From positions 1-64,000 of the forward strand of contig NZ_CANLZW010000022.1 in NCBI RefSeq assembly GCF_947495625.1: DNA of 64,000 nucleotides, in the 5' to 3' direction. This document shows positions 7,279 through 59,725 of the stretch, one piece after another. Within the stretch, counting starts at the first letter, position 1. The number at the start of each line of letters is the position of its first letter. The notes under the pieces were generated by a model. It was not told where the DNA came from. It saw only the letters and a program-made list of their open reading frames with translations, and ran no database searches. The translations under genes and the position numbers were made by a program. The stretch comes from an uncultured Cocleimonas sp. (GTDB taxonomy: Bacteria; Pseudomonadota; Gammaproteobacteria; Thiotrichales; Thiotrichaceae).

Positions 7279-7291
7279 GCGGTAGTAAATT

Positions 7292-7828: not shown

Positions 7829-7840
7829 GGTAATTTTAAG

Positions 7841-8191
7841 ATGAGTAAAAGAGCAGCCAGAATTCGTCGTGGCAAACGTTCTAGAATGAAAATGCGCGAG
7901 TTAGGTGCGACACGTCTTTCTATTTATAGAAGTTCTCGTCATATCTACGCACAGGTTATTTCTGAAGATAACAAAATAATCGCTTCAGCATCGACAGTTG
8001 AAAAAGTTATGCGTGATGATCTTGATTATACAGGTAACGCAGCTGCAGCTTCAGCAATAGGTAAATTAGTTGCTGAGCGTGCTAAAGAAAAAGGTGTAGA
8101 GTCTGTAGCGTTTGATCGTTCAGGTTTTAAATATCATGGTCGTGTTAAAGCGTTAGCAGAAGCAGCACGTGAAGCAGGATTACAGTTCTAA
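7841..8191 (+). CDS. rplR: Ribosomal protein L18
   Basis: The 116-residue protein (117 in E. coli) has an arginine-rich N terminus and the [21 protein letters not shown] ending. It binds 5S rRNA together with L5. Confidence 0.97.
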
Positions 8192-8202
8192 AGGTTAAGA
8201 CA

Positions 8203-8712
8203 ATGGCTAGATCAGATAATACAGAAAAGGCAACAGATGGCCTTCAGGAAAAACTAGTTCACGTTAATCGTGTTGCTAAAGTTGTAAAAGGTGGCCGTGT
8301 TTTTGGTTTCACAGCATTGGCAGTAGTTGGTGATGGAAACGGAAAAATTGGCTTTGGTTACGGTAAAGCTCGTGAAGTTCCTGTAGCTATTCAAAAAGCT
8401 ATGGAAAAAGCACGCAAGAACATCGTAAATGTGGCATTGGTTGATGACACGTTACAATATGAAGTTAATGCTAGACATGGTGCTGCACATGTTTTCATGA
8501 AGCCTGCATCTGATGGTACTGGTATCATCGCTGGTGGTGCAATGCGTGCTGTATTTGAAGTTGTTGGTGTTAAAAACGTTTTAGCAAAATGTGTAGGATC
8601 TAGAAATCCTATCAACGTTGTTCGTGCAACTATAAAAGGTTTGGCTGATATGAATTCACCAGAACTAGTTGCGGCTAAACGTGGCAAGACAGTAGAAGAG
8701 ATTAGAGGTTAA
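8203..8712 (+). CDS. rpsE: Ribosomal protein S5
   Basis: The 169-residue product has the S5 double-stranded-RNA-binding-like domain ([20 protein letters not shown]) and [20 protein letters not shown]5 helps decoding accuracy and mRNA unwinding at the entry. It is two bases ahead of rpmD. Confidence 0.98.
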
Positions 8713-8714
8713 AA

Positions 8715-8903
8715 ATGGCTGCTACTAAAGAACTAAAGCTTACAATGTATCGTAGTATGAATGGTAGATTGAAAGCTCATAAATCTTGTGCTCGAGGCTT
8801 AGGAATCAGAAAAATGCATAACAGTGTAATTGTATCTGATACACCTGAAAATCGTGGAATGATTAATAAAATTTCTTACATGCTACATGTAGAGGAAGTT
8901 TAG
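8715..8903 (+). CDS. rpmD: Ribosomal protein L30
   Basis: The 62-residue protein has the L30 core [19 protein letters not shown] and the ending [16 protein letters not shown]. coli L30 is 59 residues. It lies 2 bp after rpsE and directly abuts rplO. Confidence 0.96.
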
Positions 8904-9338
8904 ATGAAACTTAATACATTAAAACCAGGAGAAGGCAGCGTTTCTAATCGTAAACGTGTCGGTCGTGGTATCGGTAGTGGTTGGGGTAAGACTTGTGCTC
9001 GCGGTCATAAAGGTCAAAAATCACGCTCTGGTGGATTCCACAAAGTAGGTTTTGAAGGTGGTCAGATGCCACTTCAGAGACGTTTGCCAAAAGTTGGTTT
9101 TACATCTCGTGTAGGTCGTGTTTCTGCTGAAATTCGTTTACATGAACTAGCTGCTGTAGAAGCAGATGTAATTGATCTTGATTCACTAAAAGAAGCTAAC
9201 CTTATCAATAAGAGCATACTTAATGTAAAAGTTATGTTATCTGGTGAGCTAAATAAACCTGTTACGTTGAAAGGTATTAAAGTTAGTAAAGGTGCTTTAA
9301 AAGCTATTGAAGCTGCAGGCGGAAAAGTCGAAGACTAA
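8904..9338 (+). CDS. rplO: Ribosomal protein L15
   Basis: The 144-residue protein equals E. coli L15 in length. It has the glycine-rich N-terminal region [20 protein letters not shown] and [18 protein letters not shown]15 is a late 50S assembly protein. It starts at the base after the rpmD stop, and secY follows 14 bp later. Confidence 0.98.
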
Positions 9339-9352
9339 CAGGGGTTAATAAA

Positions 9353-10708
9353 GTGGCAACAAAAAACGCTACAGGAATGCTTTCGGGTGTTGGCAATATA
9401 GCAGAAATCAAACAAAGGCTTGCCTTTGTTTTTTTCGCTTTGATTGTATATAGAATTGGTACATTTATTCCGATTCCAGGAGTTAATCCAGCAGCGTTAC
9501 AGTCATTTTTTGACCAGAATTCAGGAACCATATTAGGAGTTTTTAATATGTTTTCTGGCGGTGCTTTGGAGCGACTAAGTGTTTTTGCTTTAGGTATCAT
9601 GCCGTACATATCTGCATCTATTATCGTGCAGTTAATGACACATGTTGTGCCGACATTAAAGCAATTAAAAAATGAAGGTGAATCTGGTAAAAGAAAGATT
9701 ACCCAATACACAAGATATGGAACAGTTGGTTTGGCTCTTTTCCAAAGTATTGGTATCTCTATGGCTCTTGGTGGTCAGGATTTAGGTGGTGGTCAAACAA
9801 TCGCGTTAAATCCTGGTTTAGGTTTTACTATTACCACCGTTGTCTCACTTGTAACTGGTACTTTGTTTTTAATGTGGTTGGGTGAGCAAATTACTGAACG
9901 TGGTATTGGTAATGGTATTTCGCTTATTATATTTGCTGGTATTGTTGCAGGTTTACCTACAGCAATAGGTGGAACTCTTGAGTTAGCTCGTAATGGTGAG
10001 CTTTCTCCAGCTTTCGTAATTATATTATTAGCGTTAGCAGTTTTAGTAACAGCATTTATTGTTTTTGTTGAAAGAGGGCAAAGACGAATTACTGTTAACT
10101 ATGCAAATAGACAGCAAGGTAGAAAAATGGCTATGGGTCAATCAAGTCATCTACCTTTAAAATTAAATATGGCTGGTGTAATTCCTCCCATATTTGCATC
10201 AAGTATTATATTATTCCCTTCTAGTTTAGGGCGTTGGATATCAGATGCTAATGGAGCTGAGTGGCTTCAGGATTTTGTAACTATGGTTCAACCAGGGCAA
10301 CCACTGTATGTTCTGTTTTATGCCTTAGCTATAATATTCTTTACCTTTTTCTATACTGCTTTGGTTTTCAATTCCAGAGAAACTGCAGATAATTTGAAGA
10401 AGGCAGGTGCTTTTATTCCGGGAATAAGACCAGGGAGAGAAACTGCTAAATATATTGATGGTGTAATGACACGTCTTACATCTGTCGGAGCAATCTACAT
10501 AACTTTAGTATGTTTATTGCCAGAGTTTTTGATTTTAGGTTGGAATGTGCCATTTTACTTTGGTGGTACTTCGCTATTAATTATTGTGGTTGTAGTTATG
10601 GACTTCATTGCCCAGGTTCAGTCGCATATGATGTCTCATCAGTATGAAGGTTTGATGAAAAAAGCAAACTTTAAAGCTGGTGGAAAAAAGCCCAAGAAAA
10701 CAAGTTAA
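9353..10708 (+). CDS. secY: Protein translocase channel subunit SecY
   Basis: The 451-residue protein starts with GTG and has ten predicted membrane helices. The plug region [21 protein letters not shown] and the cytoplasmic loop with [20 protein letters not shown] are typical. SecY forms the inner-membrane pore with SecE and SecG and works with SecDF-YajC, encoded at 40954-44193. The position between rplO and rpmJ is the usual one. Confidence 0.98.
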
Positions 10709-10746
10709 TTGTTCCTTGGTATAAGATTTAATTAGAGGTTTAACTC

Positions 10747-10860
10747 ATGAAGGTTCGTGCATCTGTTAAAAAAATGTGCCGTAATTGTCGTACTGTAAAA
10801 CGTAAAGGTATTGTACGTGTTATATGTACTGATCCACGTCATAAACAACGTCAGGGTTAA
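10747..10860 (+). CDS. rpmJ: Ribosomal protein L36, zinc-binding form
   Basis: A 37-residue protein reads [17 protein letters not shown] and ends in KHKQRQG-like residues (HKQRQG). The zinc ligands Cys11, Cys14, Cys27 and His32 are all present, so this is the ordinary zinc form. It completes the spc group and precedes rpsM by 75 bp. Confidence 0.97.
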
Positions 10861-10873
10861 TATGTTTTTTTTA

Positions 10874-10902
10874 TTGATTAACACTGTGAATTCGGGTATT
10901 GT
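10874..10902 (+). promoter_or_regulatory. Putative alpha-operon promoter
   Basis: TTGATT (10874-10879) and TATTGT (10897-10902) are spaced by 17 bp in the gap between rpmJ and rpsM. This is where the S4-controlled alpha operon begins in E. coli. A short CGGG/CCCG stem (10893-10908) overlaps the -10, so the region may also fold in RNA that reads through. Confidence 0.4.
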
Positions 10903-10935
10903 TGCCCGCTTTTCCAAGCAGTCAGGAGAGTTTTG

Positions 10936-11292
10936 ATGGCTCGTATCGCGGGTATTAATATCCCTGTTAATAAGCATACTGTAATAGCATTAACATCTAT
11001 TTACGGTATAGGTAGAACACGTGCAGCTAATATATGTGTTGAAGCTAAAGTAGCTCCAGCAACAAAGATTAGTGCACTTTCTGAAGACGAAATTGAACGC
11101 ATTAGAAGTGCTGTCGGTAAATTCACTGTTGAAGGTGATTTGAGACGCGAAGTTTCTATGAATATCAAGAGTCTTATGGATCTAGGTTGTTTTAGAGGTG
11201 TTCGTCATCGTCGTGGATTACCACTGCGTGGACAACGTACTAAAACTAATGCTAGAACACGAAAAGGTCCAAGAAAACCAATTCGTAAGTAA
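10936..11292 (+). CDS. rpsM: Ribosomal protein S13
   Basis: I chose the ATG at 10936 with AGGAGAG upstream, giving 118 residues as in E. coli; a TTG one codon earlier is in frame. It has [10 protein letters not shown], the helix-hairpin-helix region [10 protein letters not shown], and the C-terminal [18 protein letters not shown] tail. S13 contacts the P-site tRNA and intersubunit bridges. Confidence 0.98.
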
Positions 11293-11299
11293 TTAATCG

Positions 11300-11319
11300 A
11301 TATAGATTTTGATCTATAT
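11300..11319 (+). other. AT-rich hairpin between rpsM and rpsK
   Basis: ATATAGAT (11300-11307) and ATCTATAT (11312-11319) form a perfect 8-bp stem with a TTTG loop, followed by an AT-rich stretch ending in five T. The stem is weak. It could slow polymerase or affect message stability, but it may have no function. Confidence 0.35.
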
Positions 11320-11348
11320 AAAATATTTATTTTTGTGGGTAATTAAAG

Positions 11349-11735
11349 ATGGCAACAGCCACCAAATCACGTAAAAAAGTTAAAAAGTCGGTTAGCGATG
11401 GAATTGCACATGTGCATGCTTCTTTCAATAACACGATCATTACTATAACCGATCGTCAAGGCAACGCTTTGGCTTGGGCTACTGCTGGTGGCTCAGGATT
11501 CCGTGGGTCTCGTAAAAGTACTCCTTTTGCGGCTCAGGTTGCTGCTGAAACAGCAGGTGAAACTGCTAAGCAATTTGGTTTAAAAAACTTAGATGTTCAT
11601 GTGAAAGGACCAGGTCCAGGACGAGAGTCTGCTGTTCGTGCCCTTAATAACATCGGTTATAAAATTACAAATATTATTGATGTGACACCTATTCCTCATA
11701 ATGGTTGTCGTCCACCTAAAAAGCGTAGAGTGTAG
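11349..11735 (+). CDS. rpsK: Ribosomal protein S11
   Basis: The 128-residue protein (129 in E. coli) has [19 protein letters not shown] and the C-terminal [18 protein letters not shown], which ends at the 30S platform. It binds with S6/S18 and S7 near the mRNA exit. Confidence 0.98.
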
Positions 11736-11748
11736 TCGGAGAAAAGTA

Positions 11749-12369
11749 ATGGCCAGATATATCGGACCTAAATGTAAGTTAATGCGTCGTGAAGGTACAG
11801 ACCTTTACTTAAAAGGACGTGGACGTGCACTAGAGAATAAATGTAACTTGGAAAAAGTTCCAGGTGTTCACGGTGAGAGACGTACGCGTTTATCAGACTA
11901 CGGATTACAGTTACGTGAAAAACAAAAAGTACGTCGTATATACGGTGTGCTTGAAAAGCAATTCAGAAACTATTTTAAAGAAGCTGTTCGCCTAAAGGGT
12001 TCAACTGGTGAAAATCTTCTACAGCTTTTAGAAAGTAGATTAGATAACGTCACCTATAGAATGGGTTACGGATCAACTCGCGCAGAAGCTCGTCAATTAG
12101 TTAGTCATAAATCTATACTAGTTAACGGTCAAGCAGTTAACATACCTTCATACCAAGTTAAAGCTGGTGATGTTGTGTCTGTGAGAGAGAAATCTAAAAA
12201 GCAAACAAGAATACAAGATTCTGTTTCTGTTGCCGATCAAATTGGAATTCCAGAGTGGCTTGAAGTTGATGTGAAAAAGCTTGAAGGTACTTACAAGGCA
12301 AATCCAGAACGTGAAGAATTGCCTGCAGAGATTAACGAATCGCTAATCGTGGAACTTTACTCTAAGTAA
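11749..12369 (+). CDS. rpsD: Ribosomal protein S4
   Basis: The ATG at 11749 gives 206 residues, exactly the E. coli length, starting [16 protein letters not shown]; the frame is open upstream only as an overlap with rpsK. The S4 RNA-binding domain is around residues 95-155 ([20 protein letters not shown]). S4 starts 30S assembly, and in E. coli represses the alpha operon. Confidence 0.98.
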
Positions 12370-12408
12370 GTTTCTATAGTTAGTCTCAGATAAATTGAGG
12401 TTTATATT

Positions 12409-13407
12409 TTGTCGAAAACAACAGATTTATTGAAGCCACGTAATATCCAGGTCAAGGATCTGGGTAATCATACGTCGAAGATTGTACTTGAGCCACTCGA
12501 AAGAGGGTTCGGTCATACGTTGGGTAATGCTCTTCGTAGAATTCTTTTGTCGTCTGTGCCTGGTTGTGCTGTAACAGAAGTTAAGATCACGGGTGTTGAT
12601 CATGAGTACACAGCTCTTGATGGTGTTCAGGAAGATGTAGTTGATATTCTTCTTAATATGAAGAAGTTAGCATTTCGTTTGAATACTAAAGAAGAAGTAT
12701 CACTTGATCTTAGAAAGCAAGGTCCTGGTGTTATTACAGCTGGTGATATTCAACTAGATCATGACGTTGAAATTGTTGATCCGGATGCTGTTATCGCAAC
12801 TCTAACTACGGATAGAGAACTAGAGATGACGATCAAAGTCGAGAAAGGAAGAGGTTATCAGCCTGCTCCAGTTCGTCGTGGTCCGGATTCTCCAGAGCTA
12901 CCTTTAGGAACATTAGTATTAGATGCGTCTTTTAGTCCTGTAGTGCGTGTTTCATACGATGTTGACAGTGCTCGTGTAGAAAATAGAACTGACCTTGATA
13001 AATTAATTATTGAGCTACAGTCTGATGGTTCTATCGATGCTGAAGAAACAATCAGTGATGCAGCAACTATATTGCATGAGCAATTAGCAGTATTCTTTGA
13101 TCTTACTATTATCGAGCCAGAGCCAGAAGTTGAGCCAGAGCCTGAGATAGATCCTGTTCTTCTTCGTCCGGTTGATGATTTAGAGCTTACTGTAAGATCA
13201 GCTAATTGTCTTAAAGCTGAACAGGTTTACTACATTGGTGATCTAGTACAGAAAACTGAAGTAGAACTTCTAAAAACACCTAATTTAGGTAAGAAGTCTT
13301 TAACAGAAATCAAAGATATCCTTGCATCTCATGGTTTGACGCTTGGCGCTCGTTTAGAAAACTGGCCTCCTGCTTCAATTGAGACTAAGGATGTAAGAGT
13401 TGGTTAA
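12409..13407 (+). CDS. rpoA: RNA polymerase alpha subunit
   Basis: The 332-residue subunit starts with TTG preceded by TTGAGG; no in-frame ATG occurs near the conserved N terminus, so the weak start seems real. The N-terminal assembly domain has [22 protein letters not shown]. The C-terminal domain that binds UP elements and activators has [19 protein letters not shown]. The linker (about residues 236-250) is a proline-glutamate repeat, [13 protein letters not shown], more acidic than in E. coli. Confidence 0.98.
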
Positions 13408-13461
13408 TTCGATTTGATCGAATAATTAACTAAATAGAAACAAAAATTTAAGGTTTACAAC

Positions 13462-13833
13462 ATGCGTCATCATAAAATAGGCAGACAACTTAGCCGTAAC
13501 AGTAGTCACCGTAAAGCAACATTGCAGAGCTTATCTACTGCTCTAATTAAGCATGGAGCTATCAAAACAACTGTTGCTAAGGCAAAAGAATTGCGTCGCG
13601 TAGCTGAGCCATTAGTTACACGAGCTAAAGAAGATTCAGTTCACAACCGTCGTACTGCATTTGCAAGATTGCGAGACGATGAGTGTGTAGGTATCTTATT
13701 CAATGAATTAGGTCCTCGCTATAAAGAGCGTCCTGGTGGATACACTCGCATTATTAAGTGTGGATACCGAGCAGGTGATAATGCGCCAATGGCTTACATT
13801 GAATTTGTTGATCGTCCTGAAGCTGCTGAGTAA
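13462..13833 (+). CDS. rplQ: Ribosomal protein L17
   Basis: The 123-residue protein has the L17 signature [22 protein letters not shown] and ends near [14 protein letters not shown]. It sits at the exit tunnel. It is the last gene of the alpha operon and is followed 18 bp later by an intrinsic terminator. Confidence 0.98.
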
Positions 13834-13851
13834 TTAGTATCTTATAAACAT

Positions 13852-13882
13852 AAAAAAAGCCGAGTTTATCTCGGCTTTTTTT
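13852..13882 (+). terminator. Intrinsic terminator of the alpha operon
   Basis: GCCGAG (13859-13864) and CTCGGC (13870-13875) form a stem with loop TTTAT, flanked by seven A and seven T, so it can work in both directions. It closes the ribosomal cluster and would also end transcription of the broken gene on the minus strand at 13881. Confidence 0.9.
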
Positions 13883-14181
13883 ATGTTATTTCAATTGGTA
13901 AAATCTTTTCGCCAAATGTAGTTAGTTGTATTAGTTTCTTTCTGGGCGACTGTTCGTTAAATAGTTTGAATTTCATGCCACACCAGCTCTCCAATTCTAA
14001 CAAGCAACTTATAACGCTTTCTTCTGGTATATCAGATAGAACATCAACGTACTCATAACCTGTGTCAACATATAAAAAACAATAGCTACCACCATGTAAT
14101 AAGCATAAGCGTCTTATAGTTTCTTTATTTGGGGTAGTTGTTAGCCATAGATATAACTTCTTGCTGTTTGATTTTCGTCAT
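13881..14181 (-). pseudogene. Small unknown gene, apparently frameshifted by one C
   Basis: On the minus strand a frame of 98 codons runs without a stop from 14177 to the TAA at 13883-13881, but it has no usable start near its N terminus. An ATG at 14181-14179 in the neighbouring frame opens MTKIKQQEVISMANNYP and hits a stop at once after a CCCC run (GGGG at 14131-14134 on the plus strand). With three C instead of four the two frames join into one protein of about 99 residues containing YCFLYVDTGYEYVDVLSDIP and ELESWCGMKFKLF. I do not recognise the family. It could be a decayed gene, a phase-variable gene or a sequencing error. Confidence 0.45.
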
Positions 14182-14238
14182 TGACTGGTATTGATTAAAA
14201 GCTACACTGTTCGCCTCTAATTTAACAAGTATACGATA

Positions 14239-14640
14239 ATGCCATTAGCAAACACTAAAACTGTTAGCGCTGAACAGTCAAAGAAAAACGCACGGTTATT
14301 TCATTATGGAAATATATTATCCATAGCAATTCCATTTCCATTATTTATATTTTGGTTTGGTGCATCTATGTTTGTTTATGCGTTATATAGGCATCATCCT
14401 AACCCAAGGGTTGGTTATTATACGCAAAAGGGTGCATATTATTTTTATGCGTTAGCAGGCTTTTTAGTGGTTATTCTTACATTTGCACCAAGGGTGTTAT
14501 TTGAAGATATTCGTTATGCGCTATTATTGTGGGGATTGTGTGCATTAGTTTTGATTCCTTTGTCTATTAAAGAGATAATGCAGATCAATCGTGAAGATTG
14601 GAAAGATACTGAGTACAAAGATAATACAAGGAATACATAG
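14239..14640 (+). CDS. Small integral membrane protein, unknown function
   Basis: The 133-residue protein has about three predicted membrane helices, around residues 26-49, 67-85 and 91-110, with a short charged tail rich in Asp, Glu and Lys. I do not recognise a family or catalytic motif. It lies 7 bp upstream of bioB on the same strand and is probably co-transcribed with it, which alone does not imply a role in biotin synthesis. Confidence 0.75.
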   Translation: MPLANTKTVSAEQSKKNARLFHYGNILSIAIPFPLFIFWFGASMFVYALYRHHPNPRVGYYTQKGAYYFYALAGFLVVILTFAPRVLFEDIRYALLLWGLCALVLIPLSIKEIMQINREDWKDTEYKDNTRNT

Positions 14641-14647
14641 GTAATAA

Positions 14648-15643
14648 ATGATGGTCGAAGTACGTAATAACTGGAACACTGAAGATATAGAAGCATTATT
14701 CGACTTACCGTTTAATGATTTGATGTGTAAATCTCACTCGATACACAGAGAATGTTTCAATCCTAATGAGGTTCAGATTAGTACTTTGTTAAGTATTAAA
14801 ACAGGGGCTTGTCCTGAAGATTGTTCTTATTGCTCACAAAGTTCAAAAAATGACACCGGTTTAGAGCGTGAGAGATTATTGCCTATATCTGAAGTCGTTG
14901 AAGCAGCTACTGAAGCTAAAAACAATGGCGCAACTCGTTTTTGTATGGGAGCAGCATGGCGTAACCCAACAGATAAGAGTCTTGATCATGTCATCGAGAT
15001 GATCAAAACAGTAAAAGACATGGGGATGGAGACTTGTGTAACGCTTGGTATGTTAAAAGAACAACAAGCTCAAAAATTAAAAGAGGTTGGTTTAGATTAC
15101 TATAACCATAATCTCGATACATCTCCTGAATTTTACGGCACCGTGATTTCAACGCGTACCTATCAGGATCGTTTAGATACTTTAGAACATGTTCGTAATG
15201 CCGGAATCAATGTATGTTCTGGTGGCATTTTAGGAATGGGTGAGACCCGCAGAGATCGCGCAAGACTTTTGCAAGAACTTGCTAATCTGCCTCAACATCC
15301 TGAGTCTGTGCCTATTAATGATCTGGTTCAGGTTAAAGGTACTCCTTTAGATGGTATTGATAAACTAGATCCATTTGAATTTATTCGTACTATCGCTGTT
15401 GCTCGTATTATTATGCCAAAATCATATGTTCGTTTATCCGCGGGTCGAACTGAGATGAATGACGAAATGCAAGCATGGTGTTTCTTTGCTGGGGCTAACT
15501 CTATGTTCTATGGTGACAGACTGTTAACCACTGATAATCCAGAAGAAAGCCACGATCAACAATTGTTTACTCGCTTAGATATTAATCCTGAAAAAGGGAT
15601 TAATAGTGAACAAGAAAACATGCCAGAAAAACAATTAGCTTAG
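14648..15643 (+). CDS. bioB: Biotin synthase
   Basis: The 331-residue enzyme is a radical-SAM protein that inserts sulfur into dethiobiotin. The cluster motif is Cys55-Cys59-Cys62 in [10 protein letters not shown]. Further conserved parts are [31 protein letters not shown] and YVRLSAGR, which supply the [2Fe-2S] and substrate ligands in the family. There is a second ATG one codon in. No other bio genes are in the window. The C-terminal tail of about 15 residues ([16 protein letters not shown]) is variable. Confidence 0.97.
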
Positions 15644-15703
15644 GGTTGTTAATCACTAAGTAAATTTATTTTCATTTATAATGAAATTATGCCTAAAAGA
15701 CTG

Positions 15704-15732
15704 TTGAAGTTGTAAATAAAAATCGGCATAAT
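15704..15732 (+). promoter_or_regulatory. rpsT promoter
   Basis: TTGAAG (15704-15709) and CATAAT (15727-15732) are separated by exactly 17 bp. The -10 and its GCG discriminator (GGCATAATGCG) are identical to those before rplC. The leader to the TTG start is about 35 nt. Confidence 0.75.
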
Positions 15733-15771
15733 GCGTCCCTTGTTTTTAAATGCCCATGTGGGAGAAGTACA

Positions 15772-16032
15772 TTGCCAAATATTACATCAGCTAAGAAGCG
15801 CGCACGTCAATCAGAAAACAGACGTCAGCATAATAAACACATTCGTTCTGGTATGCGCACAACCGTTAAGAACGTTCTATACGCTATTGAAGCTGGTGAT
15901 AAAGAAAAGGCTCAAGCAGCTTTCAAAGAAGCTGTGCCTGCTATCGACTCTAGCGTTAACAAAGGCATTATTCATAAGAATAAAGCTGCAAGATCTAAAA
16001 GCCGTTTGAATGCAAAAGTTCAAGCAATGTAA
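15772..16032 (+). CDS. rpsT: Ribosomal protein S20
   Basis: The 86-residue protein is of family length (87 in E. coli), with [15 protein letters not shown] and [15 protein letters not shown]. It starts with TTG, as E. coli rpsT does; there the weak start is part of S20 autoregulation, so the same control is plausible. A GGAG binding site is present. It has its own promoter and a terminator and forms a single-gene unit after bioB. Confidence 0.97.
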
Positions 16033-16046
16033 GATCTGAAAGATCC

Positions 16047-16079
16047 AAAAAAAGCCAGCTTTCAAGCTGGCTTTTTTTT
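16047..16079 (+). terminator. rpsT intrinsic terminator
   Basis: GCCAGCTT (16054-16061) pairs with AAGCTGGC (16064-16071), flanked by A and T runs; the T tract runs from 16072. It lies about 20 bp after the rpsT stop. Confidence 0.9.
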
Positions 16080-16106
16080 GCATGAAATTAATAGAAAATG
16101 CCTCTA

Positions 16107-16119
16107 AAGTAGGGGGGTG
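16107..16119 (+). repeat. AAGTAGGGGGGTG dispersed repeat, copy 1
   Basis: Exact 13-bp core between the rpsT terminator and the aldo/keto reductase. It is preceded by a short A-run and GCC about 7-12 nt upstream. The flanks AAAGT and ACTTT (16106-16110, 16120-16124) are inverted and give a 5-bp stem with a G-rich loop. It lies about 95 bp before the downstream start codon. Confidence 0.9.
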
Positions 16120-16214
16120 ACTTTTTGTTTTAAATCATTTGATTTAAAGTCACTAAGCTTATATCAATGCTTATAAGAATTACCCATTCCTTCAAATAAT
16201 AGAAACTATTAACT

Positions 16215-17210
16215 ATGCATTCAAGAAAATTAGGTCCGTTCACAATATCTTCACTCGGTTTGGGGTGCATGAATTATTCTATGGGTTACGGTCCAAGGCC
16301 GACTGAAGAATATTCTCACCAGCTACTCAACGAAGCGCTAGATAGTGGCTACACATTCCTTGATACTGCAGCAATGTATGGAATGGGTCATAGTGAAGAA
16401 CAAATTGGTAAAGCGCTCTCACATCGTCGTTCAGAATTCACGTTGGCAAGTAAATGTGGCATTTATAAGAATGCAGAAGGTCAGACAGAAACAAATGGTC
16501 GGCCGGAAGTACTCTATAAAACCTGTGAAGACAGTCTTAAGCGATTAAACACCGATGTGATTGATCTTTATTACTTGCACCGTATAGATCCTAATATCCC
16601 CGTAGAAGAGAGTGTAGGCGCTTTAGCGCGTTTAGTTGAGCAAGGGAAGATTCGTAGTGTCGGGTTGTCAGAAGTCAGTTCTGATAGTCTCCAGCGTGCA
16701 CACAATGAATATCCTATCACTGCATTGCAATCTGAATATTCATTATGGTCACGAACCCCTGAGAGAAAAGTATTGGATACCTGTCGAGAATTAGGTGTGA
16801 CCTTTGTTGCGTTTTCTCCTTTGGGGCGTCAATTCTTAACGGGTAAGAGTACTGACGTCTCAACTCTGGGTGATGATAATTTTCGTGCGACTATTGCACG
16901 TCCTCGTTTTGAGCCTAAAAACTTTGCCGAAAATACTAAGTTACTTATTCCTTTCGCTGAAATTGCAGAACAAGTCGACTGTAGTATGGCGCAATTATCA
17001 CTTGCCTGGCTACTTGCTAAAGGTGAGGACATTATTCCAATTCCAGGAACCAGCAACATTGATCACATGTTAGAAAATGCAGGGGCCGGTGATCTGCAAC
17101 TCCCTACAGAAATCGTTGAGAAGTTAGATCAATTGATTAATGATGAAACTGTCAAAGGTGAACGTTATTCAAAAGCATTGATGGAAAGCATAGATTCAGA
17201 AAGAGATTGA
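16215..17210 (+). CDS. Aldo/keto reductase
   Basis: The 331-residue protein has the aldo/keto reductase catalytic tetrad Asp50, Tyr55, Lys80 and His122 (LDTAAMYG, SKCG, YYLHRID). The NADPH-binding end has IPIPGTSNIDHMLENAGA. The family reduces aldehydes and ketones in the cytoplasm; it looks closest to the AKR12/13-type branch and the substrate cannot be told. It is convergent with the regulator at 17238. Confidence 0.92.
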   Translation: MHSRKLGPFTISSLGLGCMNYSMGYGPRPTEEYSHQLLNEALDSGYTFLDTAAMYGMGHSEEQIGKALSHRRSEFTLASKCGIYKNAEGQTETNGRPEVLYKTCEDSLKRLNTDVIDLYYLHRIDPNIPVEESVGALARLVEQGKIRSVGLSEVSSDSLQRAHNEYPITALQSEYSLWSRTPERKVLDTCRELGVTFVAFSPLGRQFLTGKSTDVSTLGDDNFRATIARPRFEPKNFAENTKLLIPFAEIAEQVDCSMAQLSLAWLLAKGEDIIPIPGTSNIDHMLENAGAGDLQLPTEIVEKLDQLINDETVKGERYSKALMESIDSERD

Positions 17211-17237
17211 TTATTGTTAAGTATGAGCATCACTTAA

Positions 17238-18035
17238 CTAATGACTGATTGATTCTGCTGATGCTTGTTCAAGATATGAGCGCGTATAATCATCTGCAGG
17301 GTAATACGATTCGATCATAATTTCCGCGGCTGTGATATCTATAGGGGTGCCAAACGAGGTTAATGTTGTGAGAAATTTCAATGTCTGTTTTCCCATACAA
17401 AAATCAACATAAATAAAAGGCTCGGATTTTCTTTCGAGTGTTGCAGATAATGCTAATTCTGCAACACCGGGATAATTCTTAAGGTTGTTTAGTATTTTGT
17501 GATGACGTCCAGGAGACTCTTGTTGTTCTTGTTGTAATCGTCTTAATGTCGTGATGGCTACTTCTTCCCAATTTTGTAAGAAAGTTTTAAATCCATTGGG
17601 TGAGAGAACTAATTCAGCGATATTCATTGAAGAGGTAAATTCTGGGAACTCAGCTCTTATTGTTTGAGTGATAAGATCGAATGCATTATTTTTTAAAATG
17701 ATATTCCACTCCCAATCCAAAACTGTCAAAGGATATGGTTCTTGCTTCTCTAAAATAATTTCCAAAGTTTGTCGTAATCTCGACATTTCTGCATGATCAA
17801 TAGGAGTCCGTGTGTAATGATCTGCAAAACCCGCGGCAGATAGCATTTCATTGCGATTCCTTATCGGTATATTGAGTACATCACAGAGGGTAAGGATCAT
17901 CTGCTTACTCGGTTTACTACGTTCCGTTTCAATAAAACTAATGTGTTTGTTGCTTACGCCGGACTCTAAGGCTAAATCAAGTTGACTAAGTTTTTTGTGT
18001 TTACGCCAAAAACGTAATTGTTCGCCGATATTCAT
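17238..18035 (-). CDS. XRE-family regulator with MmyB-like ligand-binding domain
   Basis: I chose the ATG at 18035 (265 residues); a TTG five codons upstream is possible. Residues 1-60 are a helix-turn-helix (LRFWRKHKKLSQLDLALESGVSNKHISFIETERSKP in overlapping parts). The rest, with YPLTVLDWEWNIILKNNAF and PGVAELALSATLERKSEPF, matches the MmyB-like ligand-binding region known from this regulator family. It is divergent from the small membrane protein at 18180. A 19-bp palindrome overlaps the region expected for its own -35, which suggests autorepression. Confidence 0.88.
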   Translation of the reverse strand: MNIGEQLRFWRKHKKLSQLDLALESGVSNKHISFIETERSKPSKQMILTLCDVLNIPIRNRNEMLSAAGFADHYTRTPIDHAEMSRLRQTLEIILEKQEPYPLTVLDWEWNIILKNNAFDLITQTIRAEFPEFTSSMNIAELVLSPNGFKTFLQNWEEVAITTLRRLQQEQQESPGRHHKILNNLKNYPGVAELALSATLERKSEPFIYVDFCMGKQTLKFLTTLTSFGTPIDITAAEIMIESYYPADDYTRSYLEQASAESISH

Positions 18036-18073
18036 GGTTAGTTTGTACAAATAGAATGTTTCTAGTGATTCAT

Positions 18074-18079
18074 ATTATA
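18074..18079 (-). promoter_or_regulatory. Putative -10 of the XRE regulator gene
   Basis: A perfect TATAAT on the minus strand lies about 40 bp before the regulator ATG. The expected -35 position falls at 18097-18102, where the palindrome begins and where the sequence matches the consensus poorly. Confidence 0.5.
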
Positions 18080-18099
18080 TGACGAAATGACTTTTATAA

Positions 18100-18118
18100 A
18101 ATTACCTCTGAGGTAATT
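18100..18118. promoter_or_regulatory. 19-bp palindromic operator
   Basis: AATTACCTCTGAGGTAATT is a perfect 9-1-9 palindrome in the divergent gap between the XRE regulator and the membrane protein. A further half-site, ATTACCT, is at 18125-18131 and overlaps the -35 of the plus-strand promoter. It is the likely binding site of the adjacent regulator. Confidence 0.7.
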
Positions 18119-18121
18119 GTT

Positions 18122-18150
18122 TTGATTACCTGTCAATGAAAGAATGTATT
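18122..18150 (+). promoter_or_regulatory. Putative promoter of the small membrane protein gene
   Basis: TTGATT (18122-18127) and TGTATT (18145-18150) are spaced by 17 bp, 30 bp before the ATG at 18180. The palindrome ends 4 bp upstream of the -35. Confidence 0.5.
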
Positions 18151-18179
18151 CATCAATTTAAAAATTAATGGAGTACGCA

Positions 18180-18524
18180 ATGACAATTTTAAGAGGTTTC
18201 CTCATGCTATCCTGGCTGTTAATTATGAGTATCACTCTATATGCCGTAACTCAGCTTGGCTTCAATTGGCCTGCGGTTTTCTTTGGTGATCTGTTTGGTA
18301 ATGAATGGCGTTCTCAGTTTAATACTGATTTCCTGATACATTTGTTGTTACTTTGTGCTTGGGTTTATTGGCGGGAAGAATCCAAAGTGAAAGGTTCAAT
18401 ATACGGCTTTCTGAGTATTTTCATGGGGGGTATGTTTGGTTTTGCGTATTTGTTATTTCACTCATATAAATCTAAAGGAAATGTGAAAGCTTTATTGTTG
18501 GGCTCCCATAATGACGATGAATAA
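18180..18524 (+). CDS. Small membrane protein, possibly DUF1475/DUF2834-like
   Basis: The ATG at 18180 is preceded by GGAG at 6 bp spacing, better than the in-frame ATG at 18168, and gives 114 residues. Three predicted membrane segments lie at about 5-25, 51-68 and 75-95, with conserved-looking aromatic and acidic residues in between (FFGDLFGNEW, FNTDFLIHLL, WREESK). This layout resembles small membrane families such as DUF1475 or DUF2834, but I cannot confirm this. The regulator next door, divergent over a shared palindrome, probably controls it. Confidence 0.75.
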   Translation: MTILRGFLMLSWLLIMSITLYAVTQLGFNWPAVFFGDLFGNEWRSQFNTDFLIHLLLLCAWVYWREESKVKGSIYGFLSIFMGGMFGFAYLLFHSYKSKGNVKALLLGSHNDDE

Positions 18525-18640
18525 TAAAGGCTTAAAAAGTATCTAGTCTAAACAGAATAAAATCTCTAAAGTGCATTAATGTCATTTTGATTTATTGAGA
18601 TGTGAAATATTCATGATTACGTCAATTTAGTCATCAATTT

Positions 18641-18684
18641 AAAGATGACCAGAAATTTCTCATTCAAATTACTGGTCATCTTTT
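18641..18684. terminator. Bidirectional terminator
   Basis: AAAGATGACCAG (18641-18652) and CTGGTCATCTTT (18672-18683) form a perfect 12-bp stem with a 19-nt loop in the convergent gap 18525-18825. A-rich and T-rich ends let it act on both strands. I see nothing else in this 301-bp gap. Confidence 0.75.
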
Positions 18685-18825
18685 CTCACTTTGATCATCT
18701 CTAAGCAAGAGATGAAGGTAAAAACTGTTACGCCTAGACTAACCCGTAAATACTAAATTCTAGGGTATTCAATTCGTGAAGGTTAAGCTAACAGAGTTAT
18801 TAAAATCTGTAATGTTTCGATATAT

Positions 18826-19788
18826 TTACTGCGTAATAGTAACTTCTACGATTGCAGAGCCGTTATGCCCGTGATTATCATGTACGCCGTAATAGAATGA
18901 ATCAGTCCCGATATAGCCAGCATCAGGTGTATAAAATACCCCGCCATCTTGTTTTACTATTGTGCCGTGCCTTGGATTGTCTACTTGATCAAGCACAAGT
19001 GCATCACCGTCGGCATCTGAATCATTACCTAATAAATCGATAAAGACAGTTGCACCTTGGGTTGTTGTGGCTGTATCTGCTGTAACTTCCGGCCAGCTAT
19101 CATTGCCGTCATCAGGATCAACACTCGCTACCGTTACACCTGCAGTGCTAAGGCCGCCGTGTTGATCTGAAACGGTATACATAAACGAATGGCTGGCTAC
19201 ATTGCCTTGTGGATCAAAACTTATGGTGTTGTCACTATTTACATAAGCTTCACCCAATGCCGGTTGAGATACTGATACCACAGTCAAACGATCACATTCT
19301 GCATCGTAATCATTTGACAAAACATCCAGTGTAACTACGTCATAATAATTGGTTGTAGTAGAGTCTTGGGTGACATCCGGCACTGTATTTGGCGAGTGTC
19401 TTTGTGCATCTGTGCCAACATATACGATACGTGAATCACTGCTGCTATTTCCTGCGGCATCTTCAACAAAAAAGCTTTGCGTGTAGCAACCAGCAATACT
19501 GGTGTTTATATCATTGGATTCTGAGACTGAATCGCTGATGTCGCCGTCAACATCATCGATAGCTAATGCGCCCGGATCATTAAACGATTCACCTAATGCT
19601 AGCAATAAAGGTGTCGAACCGCGCATGTATAGCGTTGGGGAAGTGGTGTCATTTGGTTGGTTTGCGGTATTAACAGGGTTATTAGCACTGTTGTTTGAGC
19701 TGCTGCTACTGCCGCCTCCACCACAAGCCTGAAGTTGCAATAAAGCAACAGGGATGAGTGTGTATGACAGTAGTTTACGTAATTTCAT
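18826..19788 (-). CDS. Secreted lipoprotein with Ig-like domains
   Basis: With the ATG at 19788 (GGAAGA upstream) the product has 320 residues; an ATG at 19800 is also possible. A lipobox LQLQAC follows a hydrophobic signal, then a Gly/Ser/Asn-rich linker. Residues about 50-125 look like a DUF5011-type Ig domain (GESFNDPGALAIDDVDGD, DAAGNSSSDSR). Two VCBS/cadherin-like modules follow, each with a DVLSNDYDAE or DLLGNDSDADGD calcium-binding-like stretch. It is probably an outer-membrane or surface-exposed adhesion or binding protein. It is a single-gene unit. Confidence 0.85.
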   Translation of the reverse strand: MKLRKLLSYTLIPVALLQLQACGGGGSSSSSNNSANNPVNTANQPNDTTSPTLYMRGSTPLLLALGESFNDPGALAIDDVDGDISDSVSESNDINTSIAGCYTQSFFVEDAAGNSSSDSRIVYVGTDAQRHSPNTVPDVTQDSTTTNYYDVVTLDVLSNDYDAECDRLTVVSVSQPALGEAYVNSDNTISFDPQGNVASHSFMYTVSDQHGGLSTAGVTVASVDPDDGNDSWPEVTADTATTTQGATVFIDLLGNDSDADGDALVLDQVDNPRHGTIVKQDGGVFYTPDAGYIGTDSFYYGVHDNHGHNGSAIVEVTITQ

Positions 19789-19940: not shown

Positions 19941-20513
19941 ATGCCTAAGGCAAATGAACTAAAGCGTGGAATGATTATAGAATTCGATGGCGTTCCACAT
20001 GCCGTAAAGAGCGTAGACTGCAAAAGCCCATCTTCTCGTGGTGCATCAACCTATTACAAAATCCGTTATAACAATCTACAGACGGGCATGAAGCGTGATG
20101 AGTCGCATAAAGCGGAAGAGATGCTCAAAGAAGCCGATTGCCAGCGCGTTAAAGTTTCATTTTCATATATGGATGGTGATAATTATGTGTTTATGGATAA
20201 CGAAGATTATTCACAACACTCCTTGAATAAAGATGATCTGGGTGACCAAGTGGGTTATATCACCGAAGGTATGGAAGAAATCACGGCCTTATTGCTCGAA
20301 GGCAATATCATCGGTGTTGTTCTGCCATCTACGGTATCTTTAGAAGTGACGGACACCGCGCCAAGGCTGAAAGGCGCAAGCGCAACAAACCGAAATAAGC
20401 CGGCTACATTAAGCACGGGAATTGAAGTGCAAGTGCCAGAATATCTGGAGACCGGTGAAATTATCAAAGTGAATACCGGAACAGGTAAGTTCATGTCTAG
20501 AGACAATGAGTGA
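19941..20513 (+). CDS. yeiP: EF-P-like protein EfpL (YeiP)
   Basis: The 190-residue protein has MPKANELKRGMI and the loop SPSSRGAST, with Arg at the position where EF-P carries its modifiable Lys. It also has VFMDNEDYSQH and KGASATNRNKPATLSTG, typical of the YeiP/EfpL branch. EF-P paralogues of this type relieve ribosome stalling without a lysyl modification. True EF-P is at 45333, so this genome has both. A strong GAGGGGAA site precedes the ATG. Confidence 0.94.
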   Translation: MPKANELKRGMIIEFDGVPHAVKSVDCKSPSSRGASTYYKIRYNNLQTGMKRDESHKAEEMLKEADCQRVKVSFSYMDGDNYVFMDNEDYSQHSLNKDDLGDQVGYITEGMEEITALLLEGNIIGVVLPSTVSLEVTDTAPRLKGASATNRNKPATLSTGIEVQVPEYLETGEIIKVNTGTGKFMSRDNE

Positions 20514-38603: not shown

Positions 38604-39266
38604 TTAAATATAACCATGCTTTTTAGCATAGCGAATTAAACCCGCCATGGAATGTGTATCTAATTTTCGGTAGATATTGCCACGATGGCATTCGACAGTG
38701 CGAAGGCTGATAGAGAGTTTTTCAGCGACATGTTTATTATTCAGACCGTTTAAAAGTTCTATTAGAATGGCTTGTTCACGTTTGGTGAGCTTGCTTGTGT
38801 CTTTAGCATTATTATCTAAAACATTTGCTGCACTAGAGCAGAAATGTGTCCCACCATCATGTATTTTTCTCACAGCATCAATCATATCAACAGCCGGTTG
38901 ATCTTTTAAAATGTAACCCTTTGCGCCTGAATCGATAGCATTTTGCATATATTCTTTATTGTCATGCATCGTCAGGATCAAAATTTTGATTTCAGGGTGA
39001 GATTGAGACAATAAGCGAGTGGCTTCCAGACCATTGATATTGGGCATACTGATATCAGTGATAATGACGTCAGGCCGGAGCTCAGACGCTATATCGAGTA
39101 GTTCTTGTCCGGTCGCTGCAACACCAATCACGTTAATATCATCTATGTCTTCAAAACGCGTTTTAATACCATCTTGAACAAGCGGATGGTCGTCCGCTAA
39201 AACGACGCTGATGCAAGTAATTGAACTATCCAAGGTGTCTTTAGTGGGTGTAGGTGCTGTGCTCAT
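38604..39266 (-). CDS. NarL/LuxR-type response regulator
   Basis: The 220-residue protein has a receiver domain with acidic pair Asp25-Asp26, phosphoacceptor Asp71 (IITDISMPN) and Lys in GYILKDQ. A LuxR helix-turn-helix follows (LTKREQAILIELLNGLNNKHVAEKLSISLRTVECH in parts). It overlaps the kinase gene by 4 bp (ATGA) and is surely its partner. The nearest likely target is the TRAP operon just downstream. Confidence 0.94.
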   Translation of the reverse strand: MSTAPTPTKDTLDSSITCISVVLADDHPLVQDGIKTRFEDIDDINVIGVAATGQELLDIASELRPDVIITDISMPNINGLEATRLLSQSHPEIKILILTMHDNKEYMQNAIDSGAKGYILKDQPAVDMIDAVRKIHDGGTHFCSSAANVLDNNAKDTSKLTKREQAILIELLNGLNNKHVAEKLSISLRTVECHRGNIYRKLDTHSMAGLIRYAKKHGYI

Positions 39267-43866: not shown

Positions 43867-44193
43867 TTAAGCGCCTTTCATTGTACCTTTTGGAAGTACC
43901 GCTGAGATTGCATGGCGTTGAATAGTGATAGTGCCAGTCTCAGATACTTTTAGCTCGACGAAACTGTCGCCTAGCTTAGAGATTTTTCCAATGATTCCGC
44001 CACTTGTTACAACTTCATCACCTTTGCTGAGTGAATCAAGTAAAGAAGTATGCTCTTTCGCTTTTTTAGCTTGTGGGCGAATGATCATGAAATACATGAT
44101 GCCGAAGAACAGGGCAACCATGAATACAAGTTGTAAACCGCCACCTGCTGGTGCTTCGCCAGCTGCCATTGCGTTTGAAATGAAAAAATCCAT
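43867..44193 (-). CDS. yajC: Preprotein translocase subunit YajC
   Basis: The ATG at 44193 has GGAG 6 bp upstream and gives 108 residues (110 in E. coli). It has one membrane helix and the family motif MYFMIIRPQAKKAKEH, then GDEVVTSGGIIGKI. YajC associates with SecDF. Confidence 0.95.
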   Translation of the reverse strand: MDFFISNAMAAGEAPAGGGLQLVFMVALFFGIMYFMIIRPQAKKAKEHTSLLDSLSKGDEVVTSGGIIGKISKLGDSFVELKVSETGTITIQRHAISAVLPKGTMKGA

Positions 44194-44271
44194 TGTAATC
44201 TCCAAAATTTAAAATTCTTAATATAATCGTTTCTTTAAAGCAGAAACAATTGTTCAATAAATAGCCGTGTA

Positions 44272-45237
44272 TTATGCCTTATCCCACGGAAAGTTAATAA
44301 CTTTCTGTATGGATTTTTCACCTGTAATGCACATCAAAACCCGATCTAAACCTATTGCTACACCTGCCGAGGCAGGAATACCCTTTTCGGCAGCTGCCAA
44401 AAATAGGTGGTCTTTTTTGACAGTCTCTAAATTAAAGTCTTTTCGAGCCTGATTTTCATCATTTAGAATTTGTTTGTTGCGCTTACTGTCTACTTCTTCC
44501 TGGTAGCCATTTCCTAATTCTGATTGGCCTAAATAAACTTCGAAACGTTCGGCAACTGGATAATGCTCAGTTTGCCTGATTTGGGCTAACGCAGATTGTG
44601 AAACCGGGTAGTCATATACAAAAGTTAAATGACTGCTTTCGAATTCAGGTTCGATGCAAAAACTCAATATTGCATCTAGTAATGACTGATTATTCATACC
44701 TTCAGTATCTAAATGGTCGATATGCTCTCTGACGCAGTCAATTAATTGTTCATTTGTAGCGATATGGGGATTGATGTTGAATTTTTCAAGGAATAACGAT
44801 TCATAAGTTTTAAATTGGGGCTTTTTAGGTAAATCAGGCAATACAATACTGAGGAGTTCTTCTACCTCTTGCATTAATTTTTGATAACTAAAACCTACAC
44901 GGTACCATTCAAGTAAGGTGAATTCTGGGTTGTGTTTGTTGCCAGATTCTCCCGCTCGCCATACTTTTGAAATTTGATAGATATCACCACTGTCTGCCGC
45001 GAGAAGGCGTTTCATTGGGTATTCAGGGGAGGTGTGAAGGTACCGAAGCTCTGAGCTTTCTGATTTATGCTGAATACATTGTATTGATTCAATAAAAGGA
45101 TCTGTATTGCCAAACTGAGATAATGCCGGCGTTTCGACTTCTAAAATATTTCGTTGCAAAAAAAACGCCCGAATGTCATGTAACATTTGGGCGCGAGATT
45201 TTCTTGTTTGCTGTGTGGTGTTAGGTGACCAATCCAA
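44272..45237 (-). CDS. epmA: EF-P beta-lysine ligase EpmA
   Basis: The 321-residue enzyme resembles a class II lysyl-tRNA synthetase catalytic core without the anticodon domain (RAFFLQRNILEVETPALSQ, EFTLLEWYRVGF, GVAIGLDRVLM). It joins (R)-beta-lysine to Lys34 of EF-P. It lies downstream of efp on the same strand, with a copy of the dispersed repeat in the 95-bp gap. Confidence 0.95.
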   Translation of the reverse strand: MDWSPNTTQQTRKSRAQMLHDIRAFFLQRNILEVETPALSQFGNTDPFIESIQCIQHKSESSELRYLHTSPEYPMKRLLAADSGDIYQISKVWRAGESGNKHNPEFTLLEWYRVGFSYQKLMQEVEELLSIVLPDLPKKPQFKTYESLFLEKFNINPHIATNEQLIDCVREHIDHLDTEGMNNQSLLDAILSFCIEPEFESSHLTFVYDYPVSQSALAQIRQTEHYPVAERFEVYLGQSELGNGYQEEVDSKRNKQILNDENQARKDFNLETVKKDHLFLAAAEKGIPASAGVAIGLDRVLMCITGEKSIQKVINFPWDKA

Positions 45238-45332: not shown

Positions 45333-45905
45333 TTAACTGTCTTTTGCTCTAGATAGGTATTCGCCTGTTCTAGTATCAATTTTAACCATTTCGCCTTCTT
45401 CTACGAATAATGGGACTTTGATTTGAGCGCCAGTCTCAACAGTGGCCGGCTTTGTTGCGCCTTGGGCGGTATTCCCTGCAACACCAGGGTCGCATTCTGT
45501 AATTTGTAATTCAATGAAATTTGGTGGTGTCGCGCTTAATGGTGAACCATTCCAAAGCGTAACGATGTATTTTTCCTGTGGTTTCAGCCAATGCTTAACA
45601 TCCATAACTGCGGTTTCTTCTGCAGCGTGTTGTTCAAAGCTGGTTGGTTCCATAAAGTGCCAGAACTCTCCATCTTCATACAAATATTCCATGTCGACTT
45701 CCATGACATCGGCCGCTTCAACTTTTTCACCAGACTTAAATGTCTTATCAACCACTCTACCGGTTTTAAGATTACGTATCTTTACTCGGCTAAATGCCTG
45801 ACCTTTACCGGGCTTAACAAACTCATTCTCAACGATGGTATAAGGGTCTCCGTCTAGTATGAACTTCAGACCACTTTTAAACTCACTTGTGCTAACAGTT
45901 GCCAT
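45333..45905 (-). CDS. efp: Elongation factor P
   Basis: The ATG at 45905, with AAGGAG 8 bp upstream, gives 190 residues; a GTG three codons earlier overlaps that site. The modification loop is KPGKGQAF with Lys34, so it is the type modified by EpmA/EpmB. Conserved [12 protein letters not shown] and [16 protein letters not shown] are present. EF-P rescues ribosomes stalled at polyproline. It is divergent from epmB. Confidence 0.97.
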
Positions 45906-46047
45906 CGATGGCACTCCTTACAAATTGGAAAAATAATAAGCCGATCATAATAACGTGAAATTAGGGCATAGTCTTTGAGAAAATCGAACTTGTTGGTGCT
46001 ATTGTTCACTTATTTTTTTAATCGATAGTTTTCCAAGAGGAAAAGCC

Positions 46048-46068
46048 ATGAAAACCATTCAATGCTAA
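46048..46068 (+). other. Six-codon ORF with strong binding site ahead of epmB
   Basis: AAGAGGAAAA precedes ATG at 46048, which opens MKTIQC and stops at 46066-46068, overlapping the epmB ATG at 46062 in another frame. It may couple translation to epmB or mark a frameshift at the true N terminus. Confidence 0.4.
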
Positions 46069-47105
46069 GTTCACATCCTTTGGAAAGAATCCAGCTAAAC
46101 AATGAATCCAATTGGCGTACCGTTTTAAAAAAAGCATTCAAAGATCCGTTGGAATTATTAGAGTTCTTAGGATTGGATCGCGCTGAATATTTAGATAAAG
46201 TTAAGACAGACAGTCGCTTTAAAATGTTGGTTCCATTGTCTTATGCCGAAAAAATGCAAAAGGGTGACTGGAATGATCCTCTGTTGCAGCAGGTGTTGCC
46301 GATCAACCAGGAAAATATTGAAACACGGGGTTTTGTGAATGATCCTATTGGTGACTTGCAGGCCGAAGCATCTTCAGGGTTACTCCATAAATATCAGGGA
46401 AGAGTTCTATTGGTAACAACCGGTGCATTTCCAGTGCATTGCCGTTATTGCTTTAGGAGAGAATTTCCTTATGCGGATTCATCGCCCGATAAAAAACAAT
46501 GGCAGAACACCTTAGATTACATTCAGGGCGACAACAGTATTCACGAAGTTATTTTTAGTGGTGGTGATCCTTTGATGTTGTCTGATGATCGCTTGCAGAA
46601 AATGTGTGTTGAAATTACAGCCATACCACATGTGAAAACATTAAGGTTCCACACCAGAGTTCCTGTATTCTTACCGGAAAGAATAAATCAAAGTTTGCGT
46701 AAAATGTTTACAGCACTATCTGCTGTTCAAGATATTCAGAAAGTTATGGTCGTTCACATTAATCATGCTAACGAAATCGATGAACATGTAAGTCGTGCTT
46801 TATCAGATTTAAGAAAAGATGGTTTTAGCTTGTTGAATCAATCCGTCTTACTGAAGGAAGTGAATGATGATGTCGCTACCTTGTCCGAGTTGAGTCATAA
46901 ACTCATGGCGAATCATGTTTTGCCCTATTACCTACATCAGTTAGATCGCATCCAGGGAGCCGCACATTTTGAAGTGGAAAGAGATCGGTCGATAAAGCTT
47001 ATGGAAGGCTTAAGAAACAACTTGCCTGGTTATTTGGTGCCAAGATTGGTTGAAGATATTTCCGGCAAACGGTCTAAGCTACCTATCGAAAAAAATCCTG
47101 AATAA
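46062..47105 (+). CDS. epmB: EpmB, lysine 2,3-aminomutase-like, missing one cluster cysteine
   Basis: The 347-residue protein matches EpmB along its length (FSGGDPLM, LNQSVLLKEVNDD, LPYYLHQLDRIQGAAHF) and keeps the candidate PLP lysine Lys339. EpmB makes (R)-beta-lysine for EF-P using a radical-SAM cluster held by CxxxCxxC. Here the motif reads Phe123-x3-Cys127-x2-Cys130: the codon TTT at 46428-46430 stands where TGT or TGC is expected. Loss of a cluster ligand should abolish activity. It is a recent mutation, a sequencing error, or a real divergence. The start is weak; AGAGGAAAA instead precedes a six-codon ORF at 46048 that overlaps it. Confidence 0.9.
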   Translation: MLSSHPLERIQLNNESNWRTVLKKAFKDPLELLEFLGLDRAEYLDKVKTDSRFKMLVPLSYAEKMQKGDWNDPLLQQVLPINQENIETRGFVNDPIGDLQAEASSGLLHKYQGRVLLVTTGAFPVHCRYCFRREFPYADSSPDKKQWQNTLDYIQGDNSIHEVIFSGGDPLMLSDDRLQKMCVEITAIPHVKTLRFHTRVPVFLPERINQSLRKMFTALSAVQDIQKVMVVHINHANEIDEHVSRALSDLRKDGFSLLNQSVLLKEVNDDVATLSELSHKLMANHVLPYYLHQLDRIQGAAHFEVERDRSIKLMEGLRNNLPGYLVPRLVEDISGKRSKLPIEKNPE

Positions 47106-58517: not shown

Positions 58518-58594
58518 CGGGGTGTAGCGCAGTCTGGTAGCGCACCACACTGGGGGTGTGGTGGTCGTCAGTTCGAATCTGGCCACCCCGACCA
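58518..58594 (+). tRNA. tRNA-Pro (anticodon GGG)
   Basis: The 77-nt cloverleaf has acceptor CGGGGTG/CACCCCG, D-stem GCGC/GCGC, anticodon stem CCACA/TGTGG with loop CTGGGGG (anticodon GGG), T-arm GTCAG-TTCGAAT-CTGGC and an encoded CCA. It reads CCC and CCU codons. The rpfE-like gene begins 16 bp later and may be in the same transcript. Confidence 0.97.
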
Positions 58595-58609
58595 ATTCTC
58601 ACGAGAAAT

Positions 58610-59725
58610 ATGTCTCCTAAACCTCAAATCCATCTTTCTATTCCCGCTTTATTTGAGCCCTTGGAATTGTGGAATAAAGATTTCAGATTTGAAGTAACTT
58701 CTAACTATCTCTCACTGCTTCTTACATCATTAGAGTTTGTCCACGTTCAAAAGGTTCATGGTCTATCTGCTTGTTTTTTTAGCAGTCTAGGGTTCAATGA
58801 CACTGAAATTCCCGCGGCGCATTATAGAGCTTTAGCTCATCGAAACAACCTTTTAGATGCAACATTAAATAATCAGAAAAATGCGATACTTTGCGCAGAT
58901 CCTGTGCATTTTGAAGTAGGTATGAGTGATGTCACACTCACTGAAATTATCTCTGACCTTAGTGAAGCTGAAGCTCAAGAGATATTAGATTTACTCAATC
59001 AGCATTTTCATCAGGATGGATTGCAGTTTTTTTATGGTAACAATCAGCACTGGTATGTCACTTTTCCAAAAAGTGAATCCATCAAAACTACGCCTTTAGA
59101 AGCAGTGTTAAATAAAAACATAGTAGGTTTACTTCCCGTTAGTGAACAAAGAAACTGGCAACAAATTCAAAATGAAATTCAAATGCTACTGCATAGCTCT
59201 GAACTGAATAATCAAAGAGAGATAGCAGGTTTGACTAGCTTAAATAGTTTATGGTTTTGGGGTGGGGGAAAGCCTGAGTCAATTAAATCAGACTATGAAA
59301 AAATATTCTCAAATGACGTTCCAGAAAATAATGAAATAAAAGGTGAAATGTTTGCCCAAGCTGCGAATTGTGATTGGCAAAAATTACCTCAAAATGGCAG
59401 AGAGCTTATAAACCAACTAAAAAATCAGGGGCAACGGACTGGCAAATTTTACATTTTGCTAGATCAACTTCAGCAGCCAGTTAGAGAAGAAAATCTAGAT
59501 GCTTATCAACGTGTGTTTACGCATATTGATGAGGATTACATAAAACCATTGATGCATGCATGGAAGAAGAATCAAATAGATTTAGTGATTGATGACGCTG
59601 ATGGAAGCCTGATTCGACCGCTTAAAACACCTGTCTGGAGTTTCTGGAAACAACCGCAACCACTTTCTAATATCGCAGCGAGAATTAATCAGCAAAAAAA
59701 CAAAGTTAGGATAAGATTAATATGA
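58610..59725 (+). CDS. RpfE-like protein, COG4255-type
   Basis: The ATG at 58610, just after the tRNA, gives 371 residues; the frame stays open into the tRNA but that part cannot be protein. It has PALFEPLELWNKDF, HYRALAHRNNLLD, CADPVHFEVGMSDVTL and SLWFWGGGKPE, which I associate with a conserved family annotated as RpfE or as a phosphoglycerate-mutase-like protein, found next to recJ in Xanthomonas and others. Its biochemical role is unknown. It overlaps recJ by ATGA. Confidence 0.8.
   Translation: MSPKPQIHLSIPALFEPLELWNKDFRFEVTSNYLSLLLTSLEFVHVQKVHGLSACFFSSLGFNDTEIPAAHYRALAHRNNLLDATLNNQKNAILCADPVHFEVGMSDVTLTEIISDLSEAEAQEILDLLNQHFHQDGLQFFYGNNQHWYVTFPKSESIKTTPLEAVLNKNIVGLLPVSEQRNWQQIQNEIQMLLHSSELNNQREIAGLTSLNSLWFWGGGKPESIKSDYEKIFSNDVPENNEIKGEMFAQAANCDWQKLPQNGRELINQLKNQGQRTGKFYILLDQLQQPVREENLDAYQRVFTHIDEDYIKPLMHAWKKNQIDLVIDDADGSLIRPLKTPVWSFWKQPQPLSNIAARINQQKNKVRIRLI

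Follow-up and report, generated by a model that had tools for sequence, protein, structure and literature searches.

Among the genes for the modification of elongation factor P (EF-P) in a marine Cocleimonas-group genome, one raises a double question: can an EpmB whose cluster motif reads FPVHCRYC (F-PVH-C-RY-C), where CxxxCxxC is expected, still work as a radical-SAM enzyme, and is the base behind this change real? The locus lies in a stretch of 64,000 nucleotides, hereafter the window, whose relevant features are collected in Table 1. In its layout, efp is divergent from and upstream of epmB, and epmA is found beyond efp.

Table 1. Positions in the window of the EF-P modification genes, the efpL paralogue and the critical codons of epmB.
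Feature	Coordinates	Strand	Basis
efpL (yeiP), EF-P paralogue; its E. coli counterpart needs no EpmA/EpmB tag to work	19941..20513	+	NF003392, 256.6 bits (cut-off 216); 99.5% identity to C. flava
epmA (genX/poxA), EF-P lysine ligase, apparently intact	44272..45237	-	TIGR00462, 345.6 bits
efp, elongation factor P, modifiable lysine in KPGKGQAF	45333..45914	-	TIGR00038; Lys in 96/96 relatives
Divergent efp-epmB spacer	45915..46061		0/147 differences from C. flava
epmB (yjeK), 347 aa, homologue of the aminomutase forming (R)-β-lysine for EF-P	46062..47105	+	TIGR03821, 430.4 bits; 97% identity to C. flava
TTT, Phe123, site of the first radical-SAM cysteine	46428..46430	+	Sequence; Cys in 109/109 relatives; TGT in C. 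flava
C127-R-Y-C130, the two cluster cysteines left	46440..46451	+	Sequence
Glu266 at a near-invariant Gly	46857..46859	+	Gly in 92/107 relatives and in C. flava; aligned to the LLRGVND Gly of 2A5H
Lys339, PLP-binding lysine, intact	47076..47078	+	Invariant in 109 relatives; pairs with the equivalent lysine in the 2A5H alignment

The identity of the protein is clear. Its whole-length score of 430.4 bits against the TIGR03821 equivalog lies well above the curated cut-off (369.3), and the two partners that an EpmB needs, an efp with a modifiable lysine and epmA, are both encoded. The PF04055 domain is also matched (31.4 bits, with a cut-off of 29.5), in an alignment that begins at profile position 9, past the first cysteine. 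When the protein is aligned to the crystallised lysine 2,3-aminomutase 2A5H, Phe123 falls in the region of the first cysteine of the cluster motif, so that C127 and C130 alone are left for a [4Fe-4S] cluster that takes three cysteine ligands, and no new cysteine or histidine has been gained near Phe123. The preliminary description of this DNA had read the site in the same way, and both the codon (TTT, codon 123) and its coordinates are correct. Judged by its sequence, the protein is an EpmB by descent, but its defining cluster motif falls short of what a working radical-SAM enzyme requires.

How exceptional this residue is can be seen from its relatives. Cysteine occupies position 123 in all 109 aligned sequences, a set in which whole genomes across the wider group supply 29 loci and a genome collection a further 80 sequences, in which a few relatives, C. 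flava among them, are one record present twice. The closest of them, Cocleimonas flava DSM 24830 (NZ_SMFQ01000002.1), carries a 97% identical EpmB with a TGT codon, and a single difference at position 368 of the reading frame separates it from TTT, which bears out the earlier proposal that one base explains the phenylalanine. A comparison with related strains had also been suggested, and it gave TGT or TGC in the ten genus relatives (10/10) with a readable motif. A clade-wide loss of the cysteine is ruled out, since it is present in C. flava and in every one of those genus relatives. The EpmB matches of four relatives (L009, L010, L011 and L018) each hold one TAA inside the match, which may simply be terminal stops.

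A wider search points in the same direction. The codon-degenerate pattern of the intact motif, with TGY for the cysteine, was found in 228 of 369 Gammaproteobacteria genomes, the other 141 either lacking epmB or having a diverged motif, and the version coding for Phe, Tyr or Ser (THY) instead of TGY was found among the 369 in this genome only, a count that is a lower bound on the frequency of cysteine loss because Arg, Gly, Trp and other replacements fall outside it. A literature search for a natural cysteine variant of EpmB brought up only one survey, on other matters, and the titles or abstracts of Cocleimonas genome papers contain no information on epmB.

A residue that is unique across all the collections searched is also what an error of the consensus or of the assembly at codon 123 would produce, in a strain whose EpmB is in fact normal. 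This is the main rival to a real mutation, and we regard it as possible though not probable. It fits a change of one base in one codon of a gene that otherwise shows purifying selection (dN/dS against C. flava of 0.086, close to the 0.081 of epmA), next to an efp-epmB spacer that is untouched, and the near-repeat GTGCATT at 46423 and 46434 makes a local mis-call conceivable, if speculative. Against it, no stop interrupts any of the 29 window genes aligned to C. flava, and the other radical-SAM domains of the genome (17/17) keep their three cysteines; the assembly is thus not generally poor, and a general loss of radical-SAM cysteines is likewise ruled out. The DNA around the Phe123 codon occurs in one copy in the genome, which discards a paralogue or a second haplotype as the source of the phenylalanine codon and leaves the error without an alternative copy of epmB to draw on. 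Moreover, EpmB is its own sole match at E<=0.001, with no second EpmB, KamA or AblA in the genome, and a second epmB copy or a KamA paralogue supplying β-lysine can be rejected. Nor does dN/dS, which is low, show any long-term relaxed selection on epmB or visible decay. Because of this low ratio and the unchanged spacer, any loss of function must be recent.

A second change in the same protein also bears on the base error. According to the preliminary description all other motifs were intact, and this stands for the PLP lysine, for the EF-P lysine and for EpmA; it does not stand for the conserved LLxGVND segment of EpmB, where G266E is a second unfavourable change specific to this branch. Asp, Asn and other residues occur at position 266 among the relatives, and G266E could itself be tolerated. 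We scored each residue at which this EpmB differs from its C. flava counterpart against the profile of the relatives, and the scores sum to -25.5 bits, against this genome, with sums of -2.2 to +2.2 for the control genes (EpmA, SecD, PBP1b and the ORF at 37100). A sum of the size seen for EpmB is drawn from the control differences with p 0.002, or about 0.02 when C123F is left out, values to be read with the small size of the controls (46 differences, four genes) and with the fact that the test was devised after G266E had been seen. Taken together, G266E and this burden of substitutions tip the balance slightly away from a base error and towards a gene that is real and relaxed.

The rest of the pathway shows no parallel deterioration. 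The EF-P protein is identical to that of C. flava, and EpmA has seven differences from its C. flava counterpart, each at a variable or mildly variable site and none of them a strongly unfavourable branch-specific change; decay of either protein is therefore ruled out. Phe193 of EpmA, a position held by His in 27 of 29 relatives, looked at first sight like an oddity of this branch, but the same residue occurs in C. flava and is shared. EpmC was found neither here nor in C. flava with a search that recovered the E. coli positive control. Ribosomal protein L9 is encoded in both genomes. Besides the EF-P modification genes, the window also contains efpL.

On balance we favour, with moderate confidence and from comparison of sequences, a recent and real missense loss of function in an orthologous epmB, at the level either of the lineage or of the isolate. 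The motif CysXXXCysXXCys binds the [4Fe-4S] cluster with one site free for SAM (PMC5352715), and in spore photoproduct lyase a mutation at any one of these three cysteines leaves the cluster drastically less stable and the enzyme inactive (PMC3742179). By analogy with this established radical-SAM chemistry, we infer that both the cluster and the β-lysylation of EF-P would be lost. Phe123 would offer no ligand to iron, and the cluster would not be held in a geometry able to bind and cleave SAM; without a working cluster, EpmB should make no (R)-β-lysine, an expectation that follows from the missing ligand and from the lack of any Cys or His gained nearby. The only remaining substrate of EpmA would then be α-lysine, and EF-P would be left either unmodified or poorly α-lysylated. 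EpmA α-lysylates EF-P at low efficiency.

The contrary reading, in which EpmB still works through a cluster held by two cysteines and some other ligand, or in a role independent of the cluster, seems to us highly improbable. The remainder of the protein is certainly kept, including the PLP lysine, and dN/dS is low, as would be expected of a functional enzyme; but the first-position cysteine is invariant in the 109 relatives, no substitute ligand has appeared at the site, single motif-cysteine mutants are inactive in spore photoproduct lyase (PMC3742179), and G266E adds a further unfavourable change.

A real loss of EpmB function need not be lethal. In E. coli the loss of epmB is viable and EF-P without its modification is partially functional (PMC4399890), which makes a natural loss plausible. 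There, cells without EF-P modification become very sick when L9 is lost (PMC4399890), and the E. coli EfpL, whose loop tip is unmodified, resolves stalls at proline-containing sequences (PMC11611912). The cell considered here would likewise survive on a partly active, unmodified EF-P, with EfpL relieving some of the stalling at prolines and L9 present. Within the loss of function that we favour, the mutation could have arisen in a cultured isolate during laboratory passage and be absent from the wild population. We think this fairly unlikely, while recognising that laboratory E. coli can do without epmB (PMC4399890), that selection in Klebsiella yields spontaneous disruptions of epmB (PMC12959161), and that every other sign of epmB function is kept. 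More doubtful still is the idea that the whole species abandoned β-lysylation but retained EpmA and EfpL together with a lysine-type EF-P that has not changed, which would represent an early natural stage of a switch to unmodified or α-lysylated EF-P.

Comparison with known systems helps to place the allele. Whole-length homology, the PLP lysine, the CxxC half of the motif and the gene order with efp and epmA are those of EpmB (YjeK, TIGR03821), from which this protein departs in the phenylalanine at the first cluster cysteine and in the glutamate at the near-invariant Gly266. The EpmB of C. flava DSM 24830, with its almost identical protein, common neighbourhood and identical spacer, differs in having Cys123 (TGT) and Gly266. 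The clostridial lysine 2,3-aminomutase KamA (2A5H) belongs to the same family of radical-SAM aminomutases and its motif positions can be aligned, but it has a complete CxxxCxxC and no link to EF-P. Closest in its expected outcome, EF-P without β-lysine in viable cells, are the laboratory epmB nulls of E. coli (e.g. W15am, PMC4399890), from which the present case differs in being a missense allele, either natural or at the level of the isolate, of a marine relative of the Thiotrichaceae. Most likely, a known enzyme has here acquired a null allele in nature, and nothing suggests a new mechanism or a new kind of enzyme.

The interest of the Phe123 allele hangs on the confirmation of its base. If the base is right, this would be a rare natural case of an EpmB null at its active site, with the system of EF-P modification otherwise complete, offering a way to ask how much β-lysine matters to EF-P alongside EfpL, and how modification pathways start to disappear. 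If it is wrong, the case would warn that one wrong base in a consensus is enough to imitate the loss of a pathway.

Some minor observations concern the rest of the window. Across the syntenic 96 kb of C. flava, blastn (E<=1e-20) finds no match to the first part of the window (1-18839), which is either a different island or a rearrangement. An unusually diverged gene lies at 58556-59725 (71% protein identity to C. flava, dN 0.18), with better conserved neighbours. Between 18826 and 61482, the synonymous divergence from C. flava ranges from about 0.03 (43867-44205) to about 2.0 (38604-39266), a spread from gene to gene that may reflect recombination or differing levels of expression.
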